From Paeniglutamicibacter sp. Y32M11 (GTDB lineage Bacteria; Actinomycetota; Actinomycetes; Actinomycetales; Micrococcaceae), in contig NZ_CP079107.1 in the NCBI RefSeq assembly GCF_019285735.1, forward strand, positions 1,364,001-1,428,000: a stretch of 64,000 nucleotides of DNA, given 5' to 3'. The notes below the pieces were generated by a model, which was not told where the DNA came from, made no database searches, and saw only the letters and a program-made list of their open reading frames with translations. This document shows positions 7,661 through 16,373 of the stretch, piece after piece; the stretch's first letter is position 1; each line of letters begins with the position of its first letter. A program made the translations under genes and the position numbers.

Positions 7661-8179
7661 ATGGGTGCAAGAACCGCGTTGCATGTGGAAGAACTGCACC
7701 GGCAGTACTCCCAGCGCGTTTACGGCTACGTCTACCGCCGAACCACCGATGTGCAATTGGCCCAGCAGATCACCAATGACGTCTTCCGCATCGCCTGGCA
7801 GCACCAGAAGGAACCTTCCGCGGAGGTGTTGCCCTGGCTGCTGGTGACGGCACGGAACCTTATCGCCAATGAATTCAGGGCCCGGCGCCGCCAACGCAGC
7901 CTCGTTGAGAAGCTCGGTGGTGCCGAACTGGCCCGCCGCCCGGAGCCGGAGGATGACCCCGGTTCAGCGGTCCGCGACGTTCTGAACACCTTGCGCCCGC
8001 AGGAGCGCGAAATCCTCATGCTCGCCTACTGGGATTTGCTGAGCATCCTCGAAATCTCCTCGATCCTTGAATGTTCGCCCGATTCGGCCAAATCACGACT
8101 GTTCAGGGCGCGCAAGGCCTTCTCCAAGAAGGCACCGAACCAGATGTTGAAGGGTGGAACCTCAGATGGACAACATTGA
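7661..8179 (+). CDS. ECF-family RNA polymerase sigma factor
   Basis: A 172-residue sigma-70 family factor of extracytoplasmic-function size. Region 2 covers about residues 10-75 (YSQRVYGYVYRRTTDVQLAQQ, then WLLVTARNLIANEFRARRRQ). Region 4 covers about 105-160, with the helix-turn-helix stretch LRPQEREILMLAYWDLLSILEISSILECSPDSAKSRLFRARK. The ATG at 7661 is chosen because GGGGGAGGG precedes it at good spacing; an upstream in-frame ATG at 7616 has no such site. It overlaps the following membrane-protein gene by 14 bases, the usual arrangement of an ECF sigma factor with its regulator. The sigma-region-4 gene order suggests it opens the accessory protease block. Confidence 0.88.
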   Translation: MGARTALHVEELHRQYSQRVYGYVYRRTTDVQLAQQITNDVFRIAWQHQKEPSAEVLPWLLVTARNLIANEFRARRRQRSLVEKLGGAELARRPEPEDDPGSAVRDVLNTLRPQEREILMLAYWDLLSILEISSILECSPDSAKSRLFRARKAFSKKAPNQMLKGGTSDGQH

Positions 8180-9524
8180 ACAGCTCCTTCGAGACGCCGA
8201 CCCTCGCAGGCACCGGGATTCCGCCGGACCCCTTCCCCTGGACTTGGCTGAACCCGGCCCGGTCTTTGCCCAGCAACCGGTGCGCCAAGCACCGAGGCCA
8301 CGGCGCTCCTGGGGACCGGTGGCACTGGGCGCGATGGTCACCGCCGCCGCGGTGGCCGCGGTGATTTTCTGGTCGCCGTGGAACGCTCCGCTGCCCGAGC
8401 CCGGCCCGGCGATCACCCCCACCCCAAGCCCCACCGCGCCCTCGGAAAGCAGCTCGGCGAATCCGACGACGCCACCGGAGTCTGGTGCACTGCCCAACGG
8501 GTTGTTCCCCGCCTACGACGGCGTGCACTTTGCCGACGATCAGGCGTGCCGCGCCCTGTCACTGCCCCAGCTGCAGGTCGCCGACGCCCGAGGAAAGCTC
8601 AGCACGCCGGGCTATGACACAAAGGCCTTCGCCATCATCGGCTGTGTGCAGGGATTTGCCGCCTTCACACCCAGCGACCAGTTTAAGGTCGAACAGCAGG
8701 TCGAGGACACCTCCGGCGGCATGCTGATAGCGACGTGGGATCCGGCGGCCGAGCACTGGGTCAGTTCGCCAACAAAACTCACGGACGACGGTGTGGAGGT
8801 GCACCAGGAGTACCTCAGCTGGCCCCTGCTGCGTGGCTTTACCTATGAAGCGGATCAAACCCCGGAACAACGCATGAACTTGGCCATCAAAGAGTTGGGA
8901 ATCGACCCGGAAATCGTTGCGGAACTCTTCGGCCCGAATGTGCCGTCGTGGATGGAAACCGAAACCGGGGTGGAACGTGTTCCCTACGGTAATTCGGTCC
9001 TTGAAGTCACTCATCCTGCGTGGACCCAATACGAATTGCTCCGTGACTCCGAGGGCAAAGAAATGGACCAGGTAACCAATGATCCGAGGGACGCGGCCAC
9101 CTACCATTTGACGTTCTTCGATGCCCACGGAAAGGCGGTCTTCAACCTAGCCATCTTCGACGATGACCGGCCCGGGGAGGATGGTACCGAAACCTGCAAC
9201 GACCCGGCAGGTACCTACACGCTGAACGGGCTGAGCCCCACCTCCGTCGTGGTTGATGAGGGGAAGCTGGCCCTGGGGCTGATTACCCAGAGCGACTACT
9301 TCGGGATTGAGCGCTCGGCGGTGTCGTTGGTTCCGGCCGACAGCGCCGCGCAGGGCAAGCTGTGCGACCTGGCCACTGCCTTCCACCTGAACGGGAAGAT
9401 GGTCCAATCCGACGCCTGGACCGGCTACATGGGGTTCAAGGACGCGGCAGAACGCGATACCTACCTGGCCTCCAGCGAGTACCTTCGGGCACAGGAGGTG
9501 GCAGCATCACTGAGGCTCAAGTAG
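8166..9524 (+). CDS. Single-pass membrane protein coupled to the ECF sigma gene
   Basis: Unknown 452-residue protein. Residues 1-48 would be cytoplasmic and begin MDNIEQLLRDADP, a start often seen in proteins encoded beside actinobacterial ECF sigma factors. One membrane helix spans about 49-70 (SWGPVALGAMVTAAAVAAVIF). A Pro/Thr/Ser-rich linker (about 78-110) follows, then an outside domain of about 340 residues with four Cys. The overlap with the sigma gene suggests an anti-sigma or sensor role, but I see no zinc-binding HxxxCxxC anti-sigma motif. ATG at 8166 is preceded by AGGGTGG; a GTG at 8154 is an alternative. Confidence 0.75.
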   Translation: MDNIEQLLRDADPRRHRDSAGPLPLDLAEPGPVFAQQPVRQAPRPRRSWGPVALGAMVTAAAVAAVIFWSPWNAPLPEPGPAITPTPSPTAPSESSSANPTTPPESGALPNGLFPAYDGVHFADDQACRALSLPQLQVADARGKLSTPGYDTKAFAIIGCVQGFAAFTPSDQFKVEQQVEDTSGGMLIATWDPAAEHWVSSPTKLTDDGVEVHQEYLSWPLLRGFTYEADQTPEQRMNLAIKELGIDPEIVAELFGPNVPSWMETETGVERVPYGNSVLEVTHPAWTQYELLRDSEGKEMDQVTNDPRDAATYHLTFFDAHGKAVFNLAIFDDDRPGEDGTETCNDPAGTYTLNGLSPTSVVVDEGKLALGLITQSDYFGIERSAVSLVPADSAAQGKLCDLATAFHLNGKMVQSDAWTGYMGFKDAAERDTYLASSEYLRAQEVAASLRLK

Positions 9525-9534
9525 CTGGTGCTGC

Positions 9535-9569
9535 GGCGTTACCGTCCGGGGACACCGGGCGGTAACGCC
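9535..9569 (+). terminator. Hairpin after the sigma/membrane-protein pair
   Basis: GGCGTTACCGTCCGG pairs with CCGGGCGGTAACGCC across a 5-base loop, 15 bp with one G-T wobble, starting 11 bases after the stop codon at 9524. There is no T run. The right arm overlaps the direct repeats described at 9559-9576. Confidence 0.5.
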
Positions 9570-9581
9570 GCGGTAATGTCC
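9559..9581 (+). promoter_or_regulatory. 11-bp-period direct repeat upstream of the caspase gene (possible SARP-type operator)
   Basis: GCGGTAA occurs at 9559-9565 and again at 9570-9576, exactly 11 bp apart, followed by TGTCC. Tandem heptamers with an 11-bp period are the known binding pattern of SARP regulators, and a SARP-like gene lies at 13408. The same arrangement, GCGGTAACG-N6-TAATNTCC, recurs at 14219-14241. Binding is inferred, not shown. Confidence 0.45.
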
Positions 9582-9637
9582 TGCGGTCCATGCTGGTGGA
9601 GGGATATCCATAACACGGCACCTGACAGGAGCGGATC

Positions 9638-11695
9638 ATGGTTTTGCTGACGGCCCGGGAACCAAACCCCGAGAAAGACGGCGCGGCACGAGGCGTTCTT
9701 CCGGCGGGAATCGATCCACAGGCACTCAAGCGGCACCTGATCAACCTGTCGGACGGACGCTTTTCCGCCGGCGGGCAAATGCGCACCACCCCGGAGGACG
9801 TTCAGGCGATCTTCGCACGCCACCTACCCGAGTTTGTTGCCGCCAACGGCGGACGCGACGTCCCATTGCTCTTGTGGGCCCACGGCGGGCTGGTGGATGA
9901 AAACTCGGGAATTCTCGGGGCAGCGCGCCAGATCCCGTGGTGGCTGGCCAACGGGGTCTATCCGATCTTCTTTATCTGGGAAACCGGGCTCTTTGATGCC
10001 ATCGCCAGCCTGCTCGGAGCCGCCCCGCGCGAGGCGGAGATCGCTGTCCCGGCCGAGCGGGGCTTCCTGCAGGACGCCTGGAACAAGGCCTTGGAACTGC
10101 TAGCTCGCCCCGTGGGACCCAAAATCTGGGGTCAGATGAAACTTAGCGCCGCTCAATCGGTGGCCGACGACGGCGGTGCGCTGTATGTGGCCCGGGAGCT
10201 GGCCGAATATGTTCAGAAAAACCCGCAGGCCCTTCAGCTGCATGCGGCCGGGCACTCGGCCGGCGCGATCTTCCATTCGCACTTCCTGCCGGCCTACGCC
10301 GGGCTGGATGCTGGGCAGGGCTTCTCCACGCTGAGTCTGCTGGCCCCGGCCATCACCACCGACAACTTCAAGCAACGACTGCTGCCGCTGTTGGGGACCG
10401 CCAACGGGGTAGATCACCTGGGTATGTTCTCCATGGACTCGAAGCTGGAGGAGGAAGATAACGTCATTGGTCTCTACCGGCGCTCGCTGCTCTGCCTGAT
10501 TCGCGCCTCACTGGAGGTCGAGCCGAACACCCCGATTCTGGGTCTGGCGGAATCGGTGGCCTCCGACGAATCGCTGACCCAGCTCTTCGCCTCGGCGAGG
10601 GCCGACGCGACCTGGTCGATATCCGCAGGCGGACCCAAGTCGGGGCGCAGCGCCGCGCGGTCTCACGGTTCCTTCGATGATGACCCCGATACCATGACCA
10701 GCGTGCTGTGCCGAGTACTGGGCCGCGAGGACGTCATCGGGTACGGCGGCGCCCGGCCGACTCCGGAACCTGCTGCCGCCGTGAACCCCGCGCCGTCCAT
10801 CGTGGTACCGGACCTCGGGCACGGCGCCAGCTCCGGCCCAGCCGGAGAACGCTACGCCCTCTGCGTGGGCATCAACGACTTCCAGAACCTACCGCGCGGT
10901 TCGTGGCTTAACGGCTGCGTCAACGACGCAAACGACTTTGCCCAGGTCTTGGGGGCTGGGTACGGATTCACCGACCGCCAGATCGAGGTGCTCACCGACG
11001 CCGGTGCCACCAAGGCAGCGGTCATGGGCAAATTGCGAGCGGCCATGGACCGGGCGGCAAACGACGGACTGAAGCACCTGGTCTTCACCTTCTCTAGCCA
11101 CGGAACCCAGATCCCGGATACCTCGGGTGATGAAGCAGACCAGTCGGACGAGGCCTTTGCCACCTATGACCTGAACCAGGCCGGGGACCAATGGGACCCG
11201 GCCACCCTGATCTCCGATGACGAACTCCACGACCTCATTTCCCGGGCGCCGCAAGGGATGCTGGTCGAGGTGGTCCTGGACACCTGCCATAGTGGTGACG
11301 GACTCAAGGCGCTGGACCTGCTGCCCGGGCGGCGCCCACGGTTCCTGCCCCCACCCACGCCGATCGGCCTGGAGCGCACGGCAACGGCGGACCCACGGGC
11401 CTTCCGCGACCTCGTGTCACGCACGGGCGCCGGGGCGCGCCCGGTGCTGCTGGCAGGCTGCCGCTCGGACCAGACCTCTGCCGATGCGATATTCGAGGGA
11501 CGTTATAACGGCGCGTTCACCTACTACCTGCTGCAGGAGCTGCGCACCGACCCCACCCGCACCCGCAAGTTGATTCTGGCCGCCGTCATCAAATCACTGA
11601 CCAAGGGCCGCTTTGACCAGCGCGCGCAACTGGAAGGCCCCGTCGCGGCCAAGAACTCGCCGTGGGGCAGCGCCTTCGCGCCCCGTTCGCGGTGA
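9638..11695 (+). CDS. Caspase-like (C14) peptidase with N-terminal alpha/beta-hydrolase-like domain
   Basis: A 685-residue two-domain protein. Residues about 70-290 look like an alpha/beta hydrolase: LLLWAHGGLVDE near 77, and the nucleophile-elbow-like GHSAG at 205-209 (Ser207). Residues about 405-685 are a caspase/metacaspase fold starting RYALCVGINDF, with catalytic His488 in FTFSSHGTQ and Cys550 in VVLDTCHSG, each after a hydrophobic strand as in family C14. No signal peptide or membrane helix is seen, so it should act in the cytoplasm. The ATG follows an AGGAG site. The stop is three bases before the next metallopeptidase gene, so the two are co-translated. Substrate and trigger are unknown. 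The family may cleave after basic residues as metacaspases do, but nothing here fixes specificity. Confidence 0.88.
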   Translation: MVLLTAREPNPEKDGAARGVLPAGIDPQALKRHLINLSDGRFSAGGQMRTTPEDVQAIFARHLPEFVAANGGRDVPLLLWAHGGLVDENSGILGAARQIPWWLANGVYPIFFIWETGLFDAIASLLGAAPREAEIAVPAERGFLQDAWNKALELLARPVGPKIWGQMKLSAAQSVADDGGALYVARELAEYVQKNPQALQLHAAGHSAGAIFHSHFLPAYAGLDAGQGFSTLSLLAPAITTDNFKQRLLPLLGTANGVDHLGMFSMDSKLEEEDNVIGLYRRSLLCLIRASLEVEPNTPILGLAESVASDESLTQLFASARADATWSISAGGPKSGRSAARSHGSFDDDPDTMTSVLCRVLGREDVIGYGGARPTPEPAAAVNPAPSIVVPDLGHGASSGPAGERYALCVGINDFQNLPRGSWLNGCVNDANDFAQVLGAGYGFTDRQIEVLTDAGATKAAVMGKLRAAMDRAANDGLKHLVFTFSSHGTQIPDTSGDEADQSDEAFATYDLNQAGDQWDPATLISDDELHDLISRAPQGMLVEVVLDTCHSGDGLKALDLLPGRRPRFLPPPTPIGLERTATADPRAFRDLVSRTGAGARPVLLAGCRSDQTSADAIFEGRYNGAFTYYLLQELRTDPTRTRKLILAAVIKSLTKGRFDQRAQLEGPVAAKNSPWGSAFAPRSR

Positions 11696-11698
11696 ACG

Positions 11699-13324
11699 AT
11701 GTCAGTGCCGACACCGCATCGCGCCGGAGATCTGAGCTCACTGACGGTGCTGGCCCAGGGACCGCACTTGATGGACGCCGCGGATCAGCCCATGACTCAC
11801 ATCCTGCGTGTCCCCAGCGAACGACTGCTCACCGGACCGTTGGGCGCACGCCTAGAGGTGGTGGTGCTTGGTCCGCGCGGGCGCAGGGAAAACCAGGTCT
11901 TGAGCCTCGGCGACTGGGGAGCGGAAGACATCACCCCGCCGACGGATCCCGCGAACCTGCCAACGGACCGCCGCTTCCTGGCTCAGCAGGCCTACGCGGT
12001 GGCGGCACACACCCTGGCGTCTTTCGAGCGGGCGCTGGGGCGTCGGATAGGCTGGGCCGGCGGGCGCAGGCTGACGCTGTACGCCAATGATCCGATCGAC
12101 TACCGCAACACCGGCTACTCCCCGGAAGACTGCTCCATCAGGTTCGGGATGATTCACGATTCACGGCACCACAACAAACTCCCGCTGGTGCTCTACCGGG
12201 ATCTGGTGGCGCACGAGGTCACGCATGCAGTGATCGACGGATACCGGCCGCGCTGGGGTGATGCCCACGCCGGGGCCGATCAGCTGGCGCTGCACGAGGC
12301 GCTCGCCGACCTCGTGGCCATGCTGGGGGTCTTCACCGCCGAATCCGTGGTGGAAAAGATCATCACCGTGGAACTTCAGACACCCGGCGCCACCCTGGAA
12401 TCCATCGATTCGACGCTGCTAGCTTCGGGACTCTTCCGCTTTGCCGACAACCTGTTCAGTCACGACAAGGCGGCACGCGATCCGCTGACCGGGGAGCTGT
12501 CGGCGAACTGGCGCCAAGATACCGACCCTCATCGGCGTGCCGCCGGGGTCGTTCGCGCGGTGCTGGGAACCGTACTGCGGTTGTGGCGGGCGGAGCTGGG
12601 GCGTCCGGGTCGCCGCTCAAGTGTTCACCAGGTGGCAGCGGCCGGTGCCCGTATTGGCGAGCGGGTGCTGAACATGCTGCTGCGTGGCCTCGCCTACATG
12701 GCCCCGGTCGATGTGGGATGGGAGGATTTGCTGCGCGGGATCCTGGCCGCCGACGCGGTGGTGGTCCCGCAGGACGAGCGCAACTACCGCGGCGCGCTGC
12801 GCTCCTGCTTTGCGGAGGTCGGTATCCTGGCCGGGCCGCCCCATGCCCTGGACGGGATGGCCGAAATGCGGGAGCTCAATTACCCGGTCCGACTTTCCGC
12901 CCTGGGTGCGGACCCCGACGAGGTGCTGCGTTTCATTTGGGATAACCCCTCGCTGTTGGATGCGGCCAAACTCGATCCGGTGGCAAGGATCACCATCGAC
13001 CGGGTGCGCCCCAGCCTCAGGATCAGTCCCGATGGTTTTGCCGTCGCGGAAATCGGGGCTTCCTTTGTCCAAGAACTGCGTCTGTCCCCGGCCGAGGCCA
13101 AGAGGCTGGGCCTGCGCACCACGGCGGCGGTGGTGTTGCGCGGCGGGGGCCTCCTGCGCTTTGACGAGGGCGGACGGTTGTGTTTTGCCGCACTGAAGCC
13201 GGTGCTGGATGTGGGACGCCAACAGGAACTGATCAACGGGGCCGATGCCGCACGCAGCGCCGCCCAACGGATGGGCAACTCGATGTTCCACCCACCGGCC
13301 GCATCGCAGGCTCCAACACCTTGA
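11699..13324 (+). CDS. Gluzincin-like metallopeptidase (M4-like)
   Basis: A 541-residue protein with a zinc peptidase core: HEVTH at residues 172-176 in LVAHEVTHAVIDGYRP, and the probable third ligand Glu200 in LHEALADLVAMLG. The EALAD segment resembles the EAISD segment of thermolysin. The spacing between the second His and Glu is a little longer (24 rather than 20 residues). No signal peptide or pro-domain is visible, unlike secreted thermolysins. Residues 420-540 form a separate, unrecognised C-terminal part. The start is three bases after the caspase stop codon, so the two are almost certainly one operon. Confidence 0.8.
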   Translation: MSVPTPHRAGDLSSLTVLAQGPHLMDAADQPMTHILRVPSERLLTGPLGARLEVVVLGPRGRRENQVLSLGDWGAEDITPPTDPANLPTDRRFLAQQAYAVAAHTLASFERALGRRIGWAGGRRLTLYANDPIDYRNTGYSPEDCSIRFGMIHDSRHHNKLPLVLYRDLVAHEVTHAVIDGYRPRWGDAHAGADQLALHEALADLVAMLGVFTAESVVEKIITVELQTPGATLESIDSTLLASGLFRFADNLFSHDKAARDPLTGELSANWRQDTDPHRRAAGVVRAVLGTVLRLWRAELGRPGRRSSVHQVAAAGARIGERVLNMLLRGLAYMAPVDVGWEDLLRGILAADAVVVPQDERNYRGALRSCFAEVGILAGPPHALDGMAEMRELNYPVRLSALGADPDEVLRFIWDNPSLLDAAKLDPVARITIDRVRPSLRISPDGFAVAEIGASFVQELRLSPAEAKRLGLRTTAAVVLRGGGLLRFDEGGRLCFAALKPVLDVGRQQELINGADAARSAAQRMGNSMFHPPAASQAPTP

Positions 13325-13407
13325 CCCCGGCCTCGGTAGGGTGGACGATTTGAATGGTGGCTGAATCATCCAGACGGCAACGGACGGGCGAAGGGGGGCT
13401 GCCCACC

Positions 13408-14163
13408 ATGGGCATTGAGGATGGGCTACGGCATTTTCACTATGGGCTGTGCCTGATGCCGTCGTGGGGGCTGTGGCGTAACGGGTGCGAGATCGAGGTC
13501 TCCCTCCGTCAGCAGCGACTTCTGGCTGTTTTGGCGGTACACGGCGCCTGTCGACGCGAATTGATAGCGGGAATGTTATGGCCCGAGTCGCCCGAGAGTT
13601 CCGCGCTGGATAACCTGCGGGTGAGCATCCACCGCGTGACCAGCGGCCTGCCCAACCTGATTCACACGAACCGGCATGTGCTGGAGCTTTCCGAATGGGT
13701 CGGGGTTGATCTGCATCGGGAATGGGAGGTGCTTGAGGGAACTGCAGGTCCCGGGAACGACAAGCCTCCCGGCACCACACCCCTGCTGCAGGGCTGGTAC
13801 GAAGACTGGGTGCTCAACGAACAGGTCCGGCTGTTACAGGCCCGGACCGCCTATTGGCGCAGGACCGCGTTGCAGTGCCTGGCCCGCCACGACTATGCCG
13901 GCACGGTGGAATCGGCGGCCCAGGGGTTGTTCCTTGATGTGTTGGACGAGGCCGCGCTGGAAATTATGGTCGTTGCGCAGCTGGCCCTGGGCCAGTGTGT
14001 TTCGGCGTTGCAGGCGATTGTTGGATTCCGCAGCAGGGCCCGGAAGGAGTTGGGCATAGCCGGTTCCCCGACGTTGGACCGACTCGAGACCCAGGTGCGC
14101 CGTGCCGCGAATGCTCCGTACGCCGGGTTCTCCGTCGGCGGACCGGATAGATGGAGCATCTAA
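13408..14163 (+). CDS. SARP/BTAD-like transcriptional regulator
   Basis: A 251-residue protein resembling Streptomyces antibiotic regulatory proteins. An N-terminal winged-helix region (EIEVSLRQQRLLAVLAVHG ... ELIAGMLWPESPESSALDNLRVSIHRV) is followed by a helical bacterial transcriptional activation domain (about residues 125-240, with LFLDVLDEAALEIMVVAQLALGQ and FRSRARKELGIAGSPTLDRLETQ). The ATG at 13408 follows AAGGGGGG; a longer form from 13354 has no clear ribosome site. It sits inside the protease block. Such regulators bind tandem repeats with an 11-bp period, which are present before two genes of the block. Confidence 0.75.
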   Translation: MGIEDGLRHFHYGLCLMPSWGLWRNGCEIEVSLRQQRLLAVLAVHGACRRELIAGMLWPESPESSALDNLRVSIHRVTSGLPNLIHTNRHVLELSEWVGVDLHREWEVLEGTAGPGNDKPPGTTPLLQGWYEDWVLNEQVRLLQARTAYWRRTALQCLARHDYAGTVESAAQGLFLDVLDEAALEIMVVAQLALGQCVSALQAIVGFRSRARKELGIAGSPTLDRLETQVRRAANAPYAGFSVGGPDRWSI

Positions 14164-14218
14164 TCAGGCTCGCGGTGGAGGTGCATCGCCGACACCCCAC
14201 GCCCCGGCAGGTCATGGA

Positions 14219-14247
14219 GCGGTAACGGGCTGATAATTTCCCGGTCA
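14219..14247 (+). promoter_or_regulatory. Tandem repeats with 11-bp period upstream of the coiled-coil gene
   Basis: GCGGTAA at 14219, CTGATAA at 14230 and CCGGTCA at 14241 follow each other at 11-bp steps. CAGGTCA at 14208 may be a fourth unit. The first 23 bases share GCGGTAACG-N6-TAATNTCC with the site before the caspase gene. TACGCT at 14260-14265 could be a -10 element. The likely ligand, by inference, is the SARP-like protein encoded just upstream. Confidence 0.45.
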
Positions 14248-14365
14248 TGGATGCGCGCCTACGCTGAGGCATCACCGCGGCGGACGGGTGGGGGCCGCTA
14301 GGGGCAAGAGGGCGGTTCTGACACCGTGGGCGTCTTTCGTGGTGAGTCCACAAGGGGAGAAAACC

Positions 14366-15250
14366 ATGGAGAATATCCAACAGGGCACCGATGTCGTTTT
14401 TGAGCGGCTCGTGGCCGCCCGGCGCGAGCACGTTGTTGCCCTTCAGAAGGCGCAGTCCAAGGAGCTGGCGGACCTCGAGACTCGCGGGCAGAGCCGGCTG
14501 GCCAGCCTGAAGAAATCGTTGCCCAAGGAACTCGCGGCCTACCTCACCCAGCAGGAAGAGGCCGAGTCCAAGGTAGCGGCGGCAGCGCTCAAGGACAGTG
14601 AAACCGCGGCCGCTCGGCTGGCGGAGGCGGAGGCGAGTGAGTCCACAGCGCTCCAACTGGTGCTGGGCAACGGACCGGCGGCCGCCGCCGTGGGCTGGCT
14701 CAGCCCGTATTACGGAACCCTGCACGGTTCCGACGGATCGGTGTATTGGCAGGGCTACAACCCCGGCAACATCGATGCATCGTGTTACGCCAACGGAGCG
14801 GGCTCGGGCATCTTCGGCACCGGTGTCGGTTCGTTCACGGTGTACATGGATTGGTGGTTCACCTTTAATGCACCGGAGAACCGCAACTACGCGCAAACGG
14901 TCTATGTGCCGTTTAACGGTTTCTACATCGTGCGTGCCGATGACGGCTGGTTCGATTCGAAGCAGGCCAATGTCGACATTTCGCTCTCGGCCACCGGCTA
15001 CCAGTACAACTACAAGCCCACGGGAAATGCCAACGTGCTCTCGGTGGGCAACGACAACATCAACGTCAACGATCGCTTCGACGGCTGGCGCACCATGTAC
15101 TACTCCGATCTCTTGGGAGCAGACCGCGCTTACCTGCTGGTGAGCGCCAAGCTATCGGTGTATGCGCGCGGCGGCGGTTCCACCGCACAGTTGGACTTCG
15201 CCAGCGGCAACGCCAACTACTTGGGCGTGCCTCTGGTCTACGTCAGCTGA
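14366..15250 (+). CDS. Coiled-coil plus beta-rich protein of unknown function
   Basis: A 294-residue protein I do not recognise. Residues 1-95 are strongly helical and charged, rich in Ala, Glu, Lys and Gln (ERLVAARREHVVALQKAQ, then KELAAYLTQQEEAESK), and likely form a coiled coil. From about residue 100 the composition changes to Gly, Tyr, Trp, Asn and Asp with alternating hydrophobics (GSFTVYMDWWFTF, QTVYVPFNGFYIV), suggesting a beta-sandwich or lectin-like domain. No signal peptide is visible. The ATG is chosen for AAGGGGAG upstream. Given its neighbours it could be a substrate, adaptor or effector of the proteases, but this is inference. Confidence 0.8.
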   Translation: MENIQQGTDVVFERLVAARREHVVALQKAQSKELADLETRGQSRLASLKKSLPKELAAYLTQQEEAESKVAAAALKDSETAAARLAEAEASESTALQLVLGNGPAAAAVGWLSPYYGTLHGSDGSVYWQGYNPGNIDASCYANGAGSGIFGTGVGSFTVYMDWWFTFNAPENRNYAQTVYVPFNGFYIVRADDGWFDSKQANVDISLSATGYQYNYKPTGNANVLSVGNDNINVNDRFDGWRTMYYSDLLGADRAYLLVSAKLSVYARGGGSTAQLDFASGNANYLGVPLVYVS

Positions 15251-15261
15251 AATGCCATTCC

Positions 15262-15304
15262 GCGCGGTGCTGTGCCGGGTCAGCTGCCCGGCACAGCACC
15301 GCGC
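15262..15304 (+). terminator. Strong hairpin between the coiled-coil and astacin-like genes
   Basis: GCGCGGTGCTGTGCCGGG and its exact complement CCCGGCACAGCACCGCGC flank a 7-base loop, an 18-bp perfect stem that begins 11 bases after the stop codon. No T run follows. It may end most transcripts so that the metallopeptidase gene is read through only partly, or it may protect the mRNA 3' end. Confidence 0.6.
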
Positions 15305-15347
15305 CCACCACCCCATCCCTGCACCACCGGCTTGTGAAGGAACCCCC

Positions 15348-16373
15348 ATGAAATACAACAACCAGCCGCTCTGCGTCCCGCGGAACCCGGCACCACGCCA
15401 ACTGCCCCCGGGCATGCCCATCGAACGCGAACGCCTCCTGCGACTGTTGGCCAATGTGTGGGTCAACGGCACCGAACTGCACTACTTCCTCATCGATGGT
15501 GCGGAGCCGCAGCGCAAGGCCGTGCGTGACGCCTTCGCCGAATGGAAGGCACTGCCGCTGGGCTTGGACTTCACCGAGACCACCACCCGCGCGGCCGCCG
15601 AGGTACGGATCTCCTTCGATGCGGCCGATGGTTCCTGGTCCTATGTGGGCCGGGACGTGCTCGGGATTCCCGCCACCGAGGCGACCATGAACTTCGGTTG
15701 GGATTTGACCGACGACTACGGGCATACCACCGCGTTGCACGAGATCGGGCACACCCTGGGGTTACCGCACGAACACCAGAACCCGTTCTCCGGCATCGTA
15801 TGGGACGTGGAGAAGGTCTATGCCTACTTCACCGGATCCCCGAACTTCTGGACCCGGGCGCAGACCGAGTCGAATGTTCTGCAAAAGTTCTCCACCACCG
15901 AGGTGGATGGCTCGGCCTGGGACCCGGACTCCGTGATGGAGTACTGGTTCCCGGCCGGACTGATCCTCCAACCCGCGCAGTACAGCAGCGGGCTGATGCC
16001 CGCCGGTGGGTTGTCGGCTCCCGACCGCGAATGGGCCAAGAAGTTCTATCCGGGTTCGGTGCCGGGGCCCGAGGTTCTGGTGCCCTTCGTCTCCCGGCCG
16101 CTGAGTCTGGGCCCCGGCGCGCAGGCCGACTTCGTTTTGGAACCGGAGGCCTCACGGCAATACACGATCGCCACCTTCGGCGCCTCGGACGTGGTGCTGG
16201 TGCTCTTCGAAGACGACGGCGGCACGCTGCGCTACCTGGGCGGGGACGATGACAGCGGCACCGGGCTAAACGCCAGGCTGCGTGTGCGATTGCTGGCCGG
16301 GCGGCGCTACGTGGTGCGGCTGCGTCTATACTGGGCCGGCGGAAGTGGGGATACCTCGATCATGTATTGGTGA
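15348..16373 (+). CDS. Astacin-like metallopeptidase with C-terminal PPC-like domain
   Basis: A 341-residue zinc peptidase of the metzincin clan. The motif HEIGHTLGLPHEHQNP (residues 131-146) matches HExxHxxGxxHE of astacins. The Met-turn SVMEYW at 195-200 supplies the expected Met and Tyr. Residues about 245-341 resemble a pre-peptidase C-terminal (PPC) beta-sandwich, with LGPGAQADFVL and DDSGTGLNARL. Astacin and PPC proteins are normally secreted, yet the N-terminus MKYNNQPLCVPRNPAPRQLP shows no signal peptide. The ATG at 15348 follows GAAGGA. It is the last gene of the protease block and is convergent with prpC. Confidence 0.85.
   Translation: MKYNNQPLCVPRNPAPRQLPPGMPIERERLLRLLANVWVNGTELHYFLIDGAEPQRKAVRDAFAEWKALPLGLDFTETTTRAAAEVRISFDAADGSWSYVGRDVLGIPATEATMNFGWDLTDDYGHTTALHEIGHTLGLPHEHQNPFSGIVWDVEKVYAYFTGSPNFWTRAQTESNVLQKFSTTEVDGSAWDPDSVMEYWFPAGLILQPAQYSSGLMPAGGLSAPDREWAKKFYPGSVPGPEVLVPFVSRPLSLGPGAQADFVLEPEASRQYTIATFGASDVVLVLFEDDGGTLRYLGGDDDSGTGLNARLRVRLLAGRRYVVRLRLYWAGGSGDTSIMYW

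Follow-up and report, generated by a model that had tools for sequence, protein, structure and literature searches.

A variable block of hydrolase genes in Paeniglutamicibacter with a predicted SARP-type operator before both of its operons

What holds together a caspase, two metallopeptidases and a transcription regulator that are encoded side by side in an actinobacterial genome, and what might such a set of proteins do in the cell? The question is raised by a stretch of 64,000 nucleotides of the soil bacterium Paeniglutamicibacter sp. Y32M11 (assembly GCF_019285735.1, contig NZ_CP079107.1, positions 1,364,001-1,428,000), in the following called the window, in which seven genes at 7661..16373 encode an extracytoplasmic function (ECF) sigma factor, a membrane protein, a hydrolase-caspase fusion, a gluzincin-type metallopeptidase, a small regulator of the SARP (Streptomyces antibiotic regulatory protein) type, a coiled-coil protein and a metzincin. 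The last five form a block that varies between genomes, and its two operons are preceded by the same type of operator, to which the small SARP is predicted to bind. In the reading that we consider the most likely, with evenly balanced confidence, the block is an inducible cytoplasmic hydrolase module of a SARP regulon that would serve a self-destructive or anti-invader response.

The genome consists of a single 4.17 Mb contig with one Pfam caspase match. All seven open reading frames, which a preliminary description of the locus had placed in one direction, are present on the + strand according to gene calls made with our own script; the metzincin gene is followed by gltA on the opposite strand. 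The intergenic distances in the sequence suggest three transcription units. The first consists of the overlapping ECF and membrane genes. In the second, the caspase and gluzincin genes are separated by 3 bp and the SARP gene follows after 29 or 83 bp, depending on which of its two possible starts is used. The third begins after a gap of 202 bp with the coiled-coil gene, from which the metzincin gene is separated by 97 bp. The block and its control elements comprise the following features.

9559..9580, + strand: operator 1, two 11-bp repeats (GGTAACG / GGTAATG) upstream of the hydrolase-caspase gene, from a repeat scan and alignment
9589..9594, + strand: -10-like hexamer CATGCT, 10 bp past the last operator 1 repeat, read from the sequence
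9638..11695, + strand: hydrolase (GHSAG)-caspase fusion of 685 amino acids, from Peptidase_C14 and catalytic motifs
11699..13324, + strand: gluzincin-type metallopeptidase of 541 amino acids, from the HExxH and E motifs and a weak M4 match
13408..14163 (the start could be 13354), + strand: small SARP-type regulator, from BTAD
14208..14251, + strand: operator 2, four 11-bp repeats upstream of the coiled-coil gene, from a repeat scan and alignment
14260..14265, + strand: -10-like hexamer TACGCT, 10 bp past the last operator 2 repeat, read from the sequence
14366..15250, + strand: coiled-coil plus jelly-roll-like protein of 294 amino acids, from conservation, a model and fold comparison
15348..16373, + strand: metzincin (astacin/myroilysin/AbsR1-like) of 341 amino acids, from Pfam Astacin and Matrixin

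Upstream of both operons stand GGTAAYG-like direct repeats with an exact 11-bp spacing. GCGGTAAYG matches the window four times, three of them at the block operators, against 0.9 matches expected. When eight operator 1 sequences from three genera are aligned, 10 of the 16 invariant columns are repeat positions. The repeat positions are likewise invariant among seven operator 2 sequences from two genera, as are many other columns (56 in total), including T66, A67, C68 and T71 of the -10-like hexamer. SARP binding sites have been described as heptamer direct repeats with 4-bp spacers (PMC5930380, PMC10972967), and heptamer direct repeats with an 11-bp period upstream of the presumed target genes are what was found at the block. 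PimR-type operators, with two or three copies, have the same architecture (PMC5930380); they differ in the heptamer, which is CGGCAAG instead of GGTAAYG, and in their targets, which are biosynthesis regulators instead of hydrolases and conflict genes. The first unit of operator 1 is at the same time the right arm of an inverted repeat, GGCGTTACCG / CGGTAACGCC (window positions 9535-9544 and 9560-9569), which lies just past the membrane gene and is perhaps its terminator. Among the relatives that were read, the complete repeat is present solely in the nearest (L032, with one mismatch; L and G numbers are our handles for loci and genomes).

Is the operator confined to this locus? A matrix built from sites of the genus was tested on 44 loci outside the training set, of which 42 belong to other genera and two (L135, L136) to genomes of the genus but not to the block site; the genus block loci and empty sites were left out, and so were L102-L104 and L157-L163, which are duplicates, lie at contig edges or are weak or distant matches. 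For the window itself the matrix score is circular, its sites belonging to the training set. A score of at least 13 was found upstream of 17 of 56 hydrolase, caspase, coiled-coil and metzincin genes and of 12 of 728 other genes (Fisher 7e-14, ignoring kinship). The 12 include genes for M6 and M4 peptidases, a patatin, a subtilisin and a lectin-like metalloprotease (the last two by eye), together with three similar-looking membrane proteins, a histidine-kinase-like gene, a glycosidase-like gene and two small open reading frames. In three loci of genus g8 (L145, L146, L147) a shorter metzincin-like gene, followed by genes for a caspase protein of about 790 amino acids and a partner of about 200, is preceded by the operator, with scores of 13.7, 22.3 and 14.3, respectively.

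A second survey covered 197 genomes of the family Micrococcaceae, 12 of them of the same genus, with the near-identical pairs G145/G171 and G023/G051 each counted twice. The strict form GTAACG-N5-GTAACG occurs 88 times in 53 of the 197 genomes and the reversed word 46 times. The small SARP family is represented by 85 genes in 46 genomes at E < 1e-40, weaker and larger SARP matches having been dropped beforehand. In these 46 genomes 60 strict sites compare with 16 of the reversed control, in the other 151 genomes 28 with 30, so that small SARPs of the window's family would account for the excess. At least one strict site is present in 28 of the 46 SARP genomes and in 25 of the 151 others (Fisher 1.8e-8, ignoring kinship), and nine strict sites, at six places, have a small SARP gene within 1.5 kb, where uniform placement predicts 0.13. 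The 11-bp phase also matters: totals summed from a per-genome table give for the SARP genomes 60 sites with spacing 5 and a combined 19 with spacings 3, 4, 6 and 7, compared to 28 and 56 in the non-SARP genomes. Of 38 sites in the SARP genomes, 12 have a -10-like [TC]ANNNT 9 or 10 bp past their last repeat, and each of the other offsets from 3 to 17 is represented at most twice. The window's genome contains no strict site, and its two block sites are of the looser form. GRTAAY-N5-GRTAAY occurs in it five times, twice as the block operators and three times near arsenic-type and ribosomal or unrelated genes, and the reversed control not at all. At the level of sequence, the predicted SARP regulon is well supported.

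The genes behind the operator elsewhere provide a hint of what such a regulon might do. Of the 88 strict sites, 46 were examined in 40 regions, with genomes having many sites chosen first; they correspond to 42 separate places. At 41 of these a gene starts 37-340 bp downstream, and one is without such a gene. When 26 of the downstream proteins were scanned with Pfam, 13 had a family at E 0.01 or better. Conflict-type domains are found in a TIR-nSTAND1-WD40 protein, in a DUF4062 protein with TPR (and a sub-threshold AAA) and in a trypsin fused to a NucA-type endonuclease (trypsin-NucA, L228). The peptidases comprise a papain, a subtilisin, an M1 peptidase and a lectin-like protein with a weak metzincin match; a metzincin related to that of the block stands behind a strict site in G038 (L231). 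Other products are a DUF2278 protein, an alpha-amylase, MscS, a glycosyltransferase, a DMFA2_C protein and a SHOCT/PLDc_N protein. The patatin behind a matrix site (L147) matches the PADLOC model 'Effector, Phospholipase' with E 1.2e-41, and we take it to be an effector of the CBASS (cyclic-oligonucleotide-based antiphage signaling system) type. The occurrence of one operator type before the block and before known anti-invader genes suggests an inducible self-destruct or defence response, and the conflict or cell-death flavour that the preliminary description had sensed in the locus is supported.

Two further groups of products were noted behind the operator. Peptides of 63-65 amino acids with a common LPSRETL core follow a strict operator at L221:709-903 (+), L249:2732-2920 (-) and L253:2728-2922 (-) in G098, G186 and G182, respectively; NCBIfam gave no match for those of L221 and L253, nor Pfam for that of L221. 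A membrane protein of 360-384 amino acids is encoded behind a strong operator near a coiled-coil locus in Arthrobacter (L154:4007-5089, +) and Glutamicibacter (L044:5129-6283, +). Its L154 copy belongs to no Pfam or NCBIfam family, and it is possibly a membrane effector of the operator's regulon.

The same gene list bears on a different explanation, a developmental or secondary-metabolism programme unrelated to invaders, in which the SARP would be a conventional activator and the cell would be remodelled or recycled by the hydrolases when it starves or enters stationary phase. The role for which SARPs are chiefly known is the activation of antibiotic synthesis (PMC10972967), and SCO6992, a relative of the block metzincin (model NF050131, 420 bits), raised antibiotic production in Streptomyces coelicolor (PMC9705864). 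Operators upstream of the alpha-amylase and M1 peptidase genes would fit such a programme; those upstream of the TIR-nSTAND1-WD40, DUF4062-TPR and trypsin-NucA genes would not, and the lack of the block in 5 of the 12 genomes of the genus would be odd for a developmental core. This explanation is considered unlikely.

Which genes belong to the block was determined by comparing its site across the genus (12 genomes). The two genes that open the row are neighbours of the block:

7661..8179, + strand: ECF sigma factor, Pfam Sigma70_r2 and r4 over the cut-off, outside the block
8166..9524, + strand: membrane protein, possibly an anti-sigma factor, overlapping the ECF gene, with a hydrophobic segment at residue 52, outside the block

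The ECF-membrane pair lies between a nudix gene and gltA in all 12 genomes (in L034 and L144 the membrane gene was called in two pieces), and in five of them none of the block genes is present at the site. The caspase fusion and the gluzincin are found there in the other seven, and all five block genes in five of these. G094 has the caspase fusion, gluzincin and SARP genes, without those of the coiled-coil protein and the metzincin; in G190 the SARP, coiled-coil and metzincin genes are missing from the site, and a metzincin and a SARP are encoded elsewhere in the genome. What varies between the genomes is therefore an insert of at most five genes; the ECF and membrane genes are bystanders, and the block of seven genes originally proposed shrinks to five. 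Nor did the dual control that had been derived from an ECF factor and a SARP in one block withstand the comparison. ECF control was rejected because the pair stands without the block, and the operator scan found no SARP-type site upstream of the pair. In the membrane protein the strongest hydrophobic segment of a hydropathy scan is that at residue 52, and no Pfam family scored over the cut-off. Two genomes of the genus contain a tandem duplication of the pair (L035, L141; G126, G141).

Do the five genes function together? A search for their co-occurrence in other genomes, suggested by the preliminary description, revealed linkage as modules instead of a seven-gene set. The gluzincin is encoded in 17 of the 197 genomes and adjoins a caspase in 16 of the 17, in the same direction in two genera and convergently in three; in the exception, G187 (32% identity), the neighbours look by eye like an MBL (metallo-beta-lactamase)-fold hydrolase and DUF2235. 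The coiled-coil gene, counted at 60% identity or more and without two weak coil-only matches, is found in 11 of the 197 genomes with the metzincin within 3 kb in all 11. A named genome collection yielded 16 coiled-coil loci, 11 with a metzincin near; the five without are L156, L159, the contig-edge loci L161 and L163, and L162 of Dyadobacter (Bacteroidota). At the last (L162:10001-11897) a trypsin-like gene (Trypsin_2 E 1.2e-4, below the cut-off) comes after the coiled-coil gene, which has 53% identity. The hydrolase domain is fused to the block-type caspase, to a more distant caspase or to a papain, or stands alone. Hydrolase, coiled-coil and metzincin genes form a row in Glutamicibacter (L044, L045), and in Arthrobacter Leaf141 (L154) a papain-hydrolase, an M6 peptidase (TIGR03296, E 1.6e-50), the coiled-coil protein, the metzincin and a SARP are encoded together. 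Leaf141 and Dyadobacter suggest that the slots are constant and the enzymes swapped, with papain in place of caspase, M6 in place of gluzincin and a trypsin-like protease in place of metzincin. On these comparative grounds the block is a composite of a caspase-gluzincin module, a coiled-coil-metzincin module, the hydrolase and the SARP, which enter other combinations in other genera, and the gene linkage is above chance but modular.

Such modularity might also mean that there is no joint function, and that two unrelated small operons, each functional as a pair, came to lie side by side at a hot spot. The full set is known from a single site with partial sets in G190 and G094, and the module pairs are separate elsewhere (L041, L099). 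The operator type shared by both operons and the hydrolase and SARP genes beside either module in other genera (L038, L044, L065, L154) speak against this explanation, which we regard as quite improbable.

Relatives of single block proteins occur more widely. A gluzincin profile matched 4 of 396 genomes across the phylum, the window's own among them. Plasmids carry relatives of the hydrolase in 16 records and of the gluzincin in 36, mostly rhizobial and with other partners; the coiled-coil protein had no match in PLSDB plasmids, and for neither it nor the hydrolase was a relative confirmed in viral contigs. Distant gluzincin relatives of plasmids (L173, L174, L176, L177, L178) and L102, from rhizobia, Hymenobacter, Deinococcus and a planctomycete, adjoin MBL-fold genes identified by annotation or Pfam (one of two over the cut-off), with DUF2235 near some; this set looks like a separate conflict-like module. 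In pCMU01 the gluzincin match lies inside a gene annotated as an S8 peptidase. At the plasmid loci L170, L171, L179 and L172, hydrolase relatives are joined to C1 (papain) peptidases, in Eleftheria and rhizobia, or stand in a row of hydrolase, caspase, phospholipase D and trypsin genes, in Mesorhizobium pOM4. At L137:7183-9797 another member of the block metzincin's family adjoins a DUF6345 protein (Pfam E 1.3e-14) with His/Cys motifs that look caspase-like by eye. Further coiled-coil homologues are present at the edges of contigs of metagenome-assembled genomes of Chloroflexi and Planctomycetota. The closest named relative with a coiled-coil gene is Paeniglutamicibacter terrestris (99% identity).

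The motifs of the enzymes are conserved. The caspase half of the fusion matches Peptidase_C14 with E 1.5e-20 (74 bits, cut-off 21.4) and metacaspase structures with E down to 4e-22, and its catalytic His and Cys are invariant in 11 of 11 aligned caspases. In the hydrolase half, HGG and the Ser of G(H/F)SAG are invariant in 22 of 22 aligned sequences; the window protein has no Pfam match in this half, a PDB sequence search gave none of worth, the predicted structure (pLDDT, the predicted local distance difference test, 39.7) is unusable, and one relative is annotated as an alpha/beta hydrolase. HExxH and HE...D of the gluzincin are invariant in 16 of 16 aligned sequences. Its Peptidase_M4 score (E 0.029, 15.3 bits) lies below the Pfam cut-off of 22.4, by which it does not belong to M4; the motif alone is present, and the profile match to thermolysin has E 0.094. 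The SARP scores barely over the cut-off for BTAD (22.4 bits, cut-off 22.1).

The 77 invariant positions of 17 coiled-coil protein sequences all fall within the C-terminal domain. A model of middling confidence predicts two long helices and a beta-sandwich, of which a carbohydrate-binding-like fold likeness, from comparison of the model, is taken as a lead only; no Pfam family scored over the cut-off. The metzincin exceeds the Pfam cut-offs for Astacin (E 1.3e-7, 32 bits, cut-off 22.5) and Matrixin (E 2.7e-6), and its closest solved structure is myroilysin (E 4e-37). Since its score of 420 bits against the AbsR1 model NF050131 is below the equivalog cut-off of 650, the AbsR1 name 'beta-glucuronidase' was not adopted. 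A further reason is that the published AbsR1 protein was reportedly made in E. coli, which has a beta-glucuronidase of its own.

Where would these proteins act? A simple hydropathy scan, which is not a signal-peptide predictor, showed a strongly hydrophobic, signal-peptide-like N-terminus in none of the five block proteins. This agrees with cytoplasmic enzymes and also with effectors that would be released by lysis or by a contractile injection system and be directed at neighbouring cells or prey. Lectin- or carbohydrate-binding-like domains in the coiled-coil protein and in the lectin-like metalloprotease of L135 and L243 (by eye and by weak Pfam matches) would suit such effectors, as would the likeness of the metzincin to myroilysin, which is secreted. 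Against them, no injection genes were seen in the block, and Pvc16_N, a marker of extracellular contractile injection systems, is present in 3 of 19 genomes with or near the block and absent from the window's genome. Cargo of such a system was rejected on this co-occurrence, and exported or injected effectors in general appear very improbable. Of the intracellular proteolytic cascade of the preliminary description, a linked set of apparently cytoplasmic proteases under predicted common control is supported; the cascade itself is hypothetical.

The kind of system is known, since caspase-hydrolase pairings and multi-peptidase sets have been described as conflict systems (Kaur et al. 2020, PMC7159879). 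VMAP ternary systems also pair a caspase-superfamily peptidase with an alpha/beta-hydrolase; in the block the hydrolase is fused to the caspase, a gluzincin, a metzincin, a coiled-coil protein and a SARP are added, and no vWA, MoxR or VMAP Pfam domain was found among the eight genes scanned. System 3 resembles the block in having several unrelated peptidase families per operon, for which proteolytic activation was proposed. Its core pair is trypsin and NucA, as in the L228 gene behind the block's operator type, whereas the block has neither and contains a caspase and two metallopeptidases instead. In the EACC1-caspase two-gene system an actinobacterial caspase adjoins a membrane-protein gene (PMC7159879); the window caspase scores 29.2 bits against a model cut-off of 140, and the membrane gene is resident without the caspase. 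SCO6992 (AbsR1) of S. coelicolor shares the metzincin family (PMC9705864), but its neighbour SCO6993 is a LuxR-type regulator and no coiled-coil partner is known. Among the literature matches listed, no title or abstract concerns these genes as a set, nor conflict genes behind a GTAACG SARP operator. The assertion that no described system has this set thus holds among those matches, with the boundary at five genes instead of seven; new, as far as searched, are the five-gene combination without a nucleoside triphosphatase core and the SARP operator common to the block and conflict genes.

The preferred reading, a SARP-controlled hydrolase module for self-destruction or defence, may be outlined as follows. 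A signal, perhaps invasion or cell damage, would raise or activate the block's small SARP. Upstream of each operon, copies of the SARP would bind to the GGTAAYG-like repeats arranged in tandem every 11 bp, and RNA polymerase would be recruited to the -10 element 9-10 bp downstream of the repeats, as sequence and genome comparison suggest. The hydrolase-caspase fusion and the gluzincin, with their catalytic residues present, would be co-produced, likewise the coiled-coil protein and the metzincin. The peptidases may then cut proteins of the cell or of the invader, or each other, and the hydrolase may attack an ester or lipid, with the coiled-coil protein as scaffold, binder or substrate of its peptidase partner. 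The cell would destroy itself or the invader would be blocked. A wider proposal, held tentatively and with rather more doubt than assent, is that the small SARP subfamily of Micrococcaceae activates an immune or suicide regulon in which one 11-bp-repeat operator would serve caspases, metallo-, serine and papain-type peptidases, putative lipases, STAND/TIR proteins and trypsin-NucA, and that the window block is a self-contained cassette with its own SARP.

Several observations speak against this reading. A site is lacking at 39 of the 56 target genes, among them the convergent caspase-gluzincin pairs and most of the lone hydrolases. The reversed control word occurs 624 times at the four other spacings and 46 times at spacing 5, a poor yardstick across spacings, and the argument therefore leans on the spacing-5 comparison and on how SARP and non-SARP genomes differ. 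No Pfam family was found for 13 of the 26 downstream proteins, and MscS, glycosyltransferase, alpha-amylase and an Rpf-like gene behind strict operators fit a conflict role poorly or are there by chance. PADLOC models matched among the seven proteins solely a generic caspase (PDLC02987). The full five-gene set occurs at one site in one genus and the remaining support is by module; even the metzincin, encoded in 22 genomes, lacks the coiled-coil gene in 11 of them. SCO6992 is reported to be without protease activity (PMC9705864).

If the reading is correct, peptidase-based conflict systems, so far described mainly from gene neighbourhoods, would possess an inducible layer at the level of transcription. 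The operator would provide a handle for finding more members, including unnamed families such as the coiled-coil/jelly-roll protein and the peptides of 63-65 amino acids, and the role of bacterial caspases would become directly testable through one small SARP.

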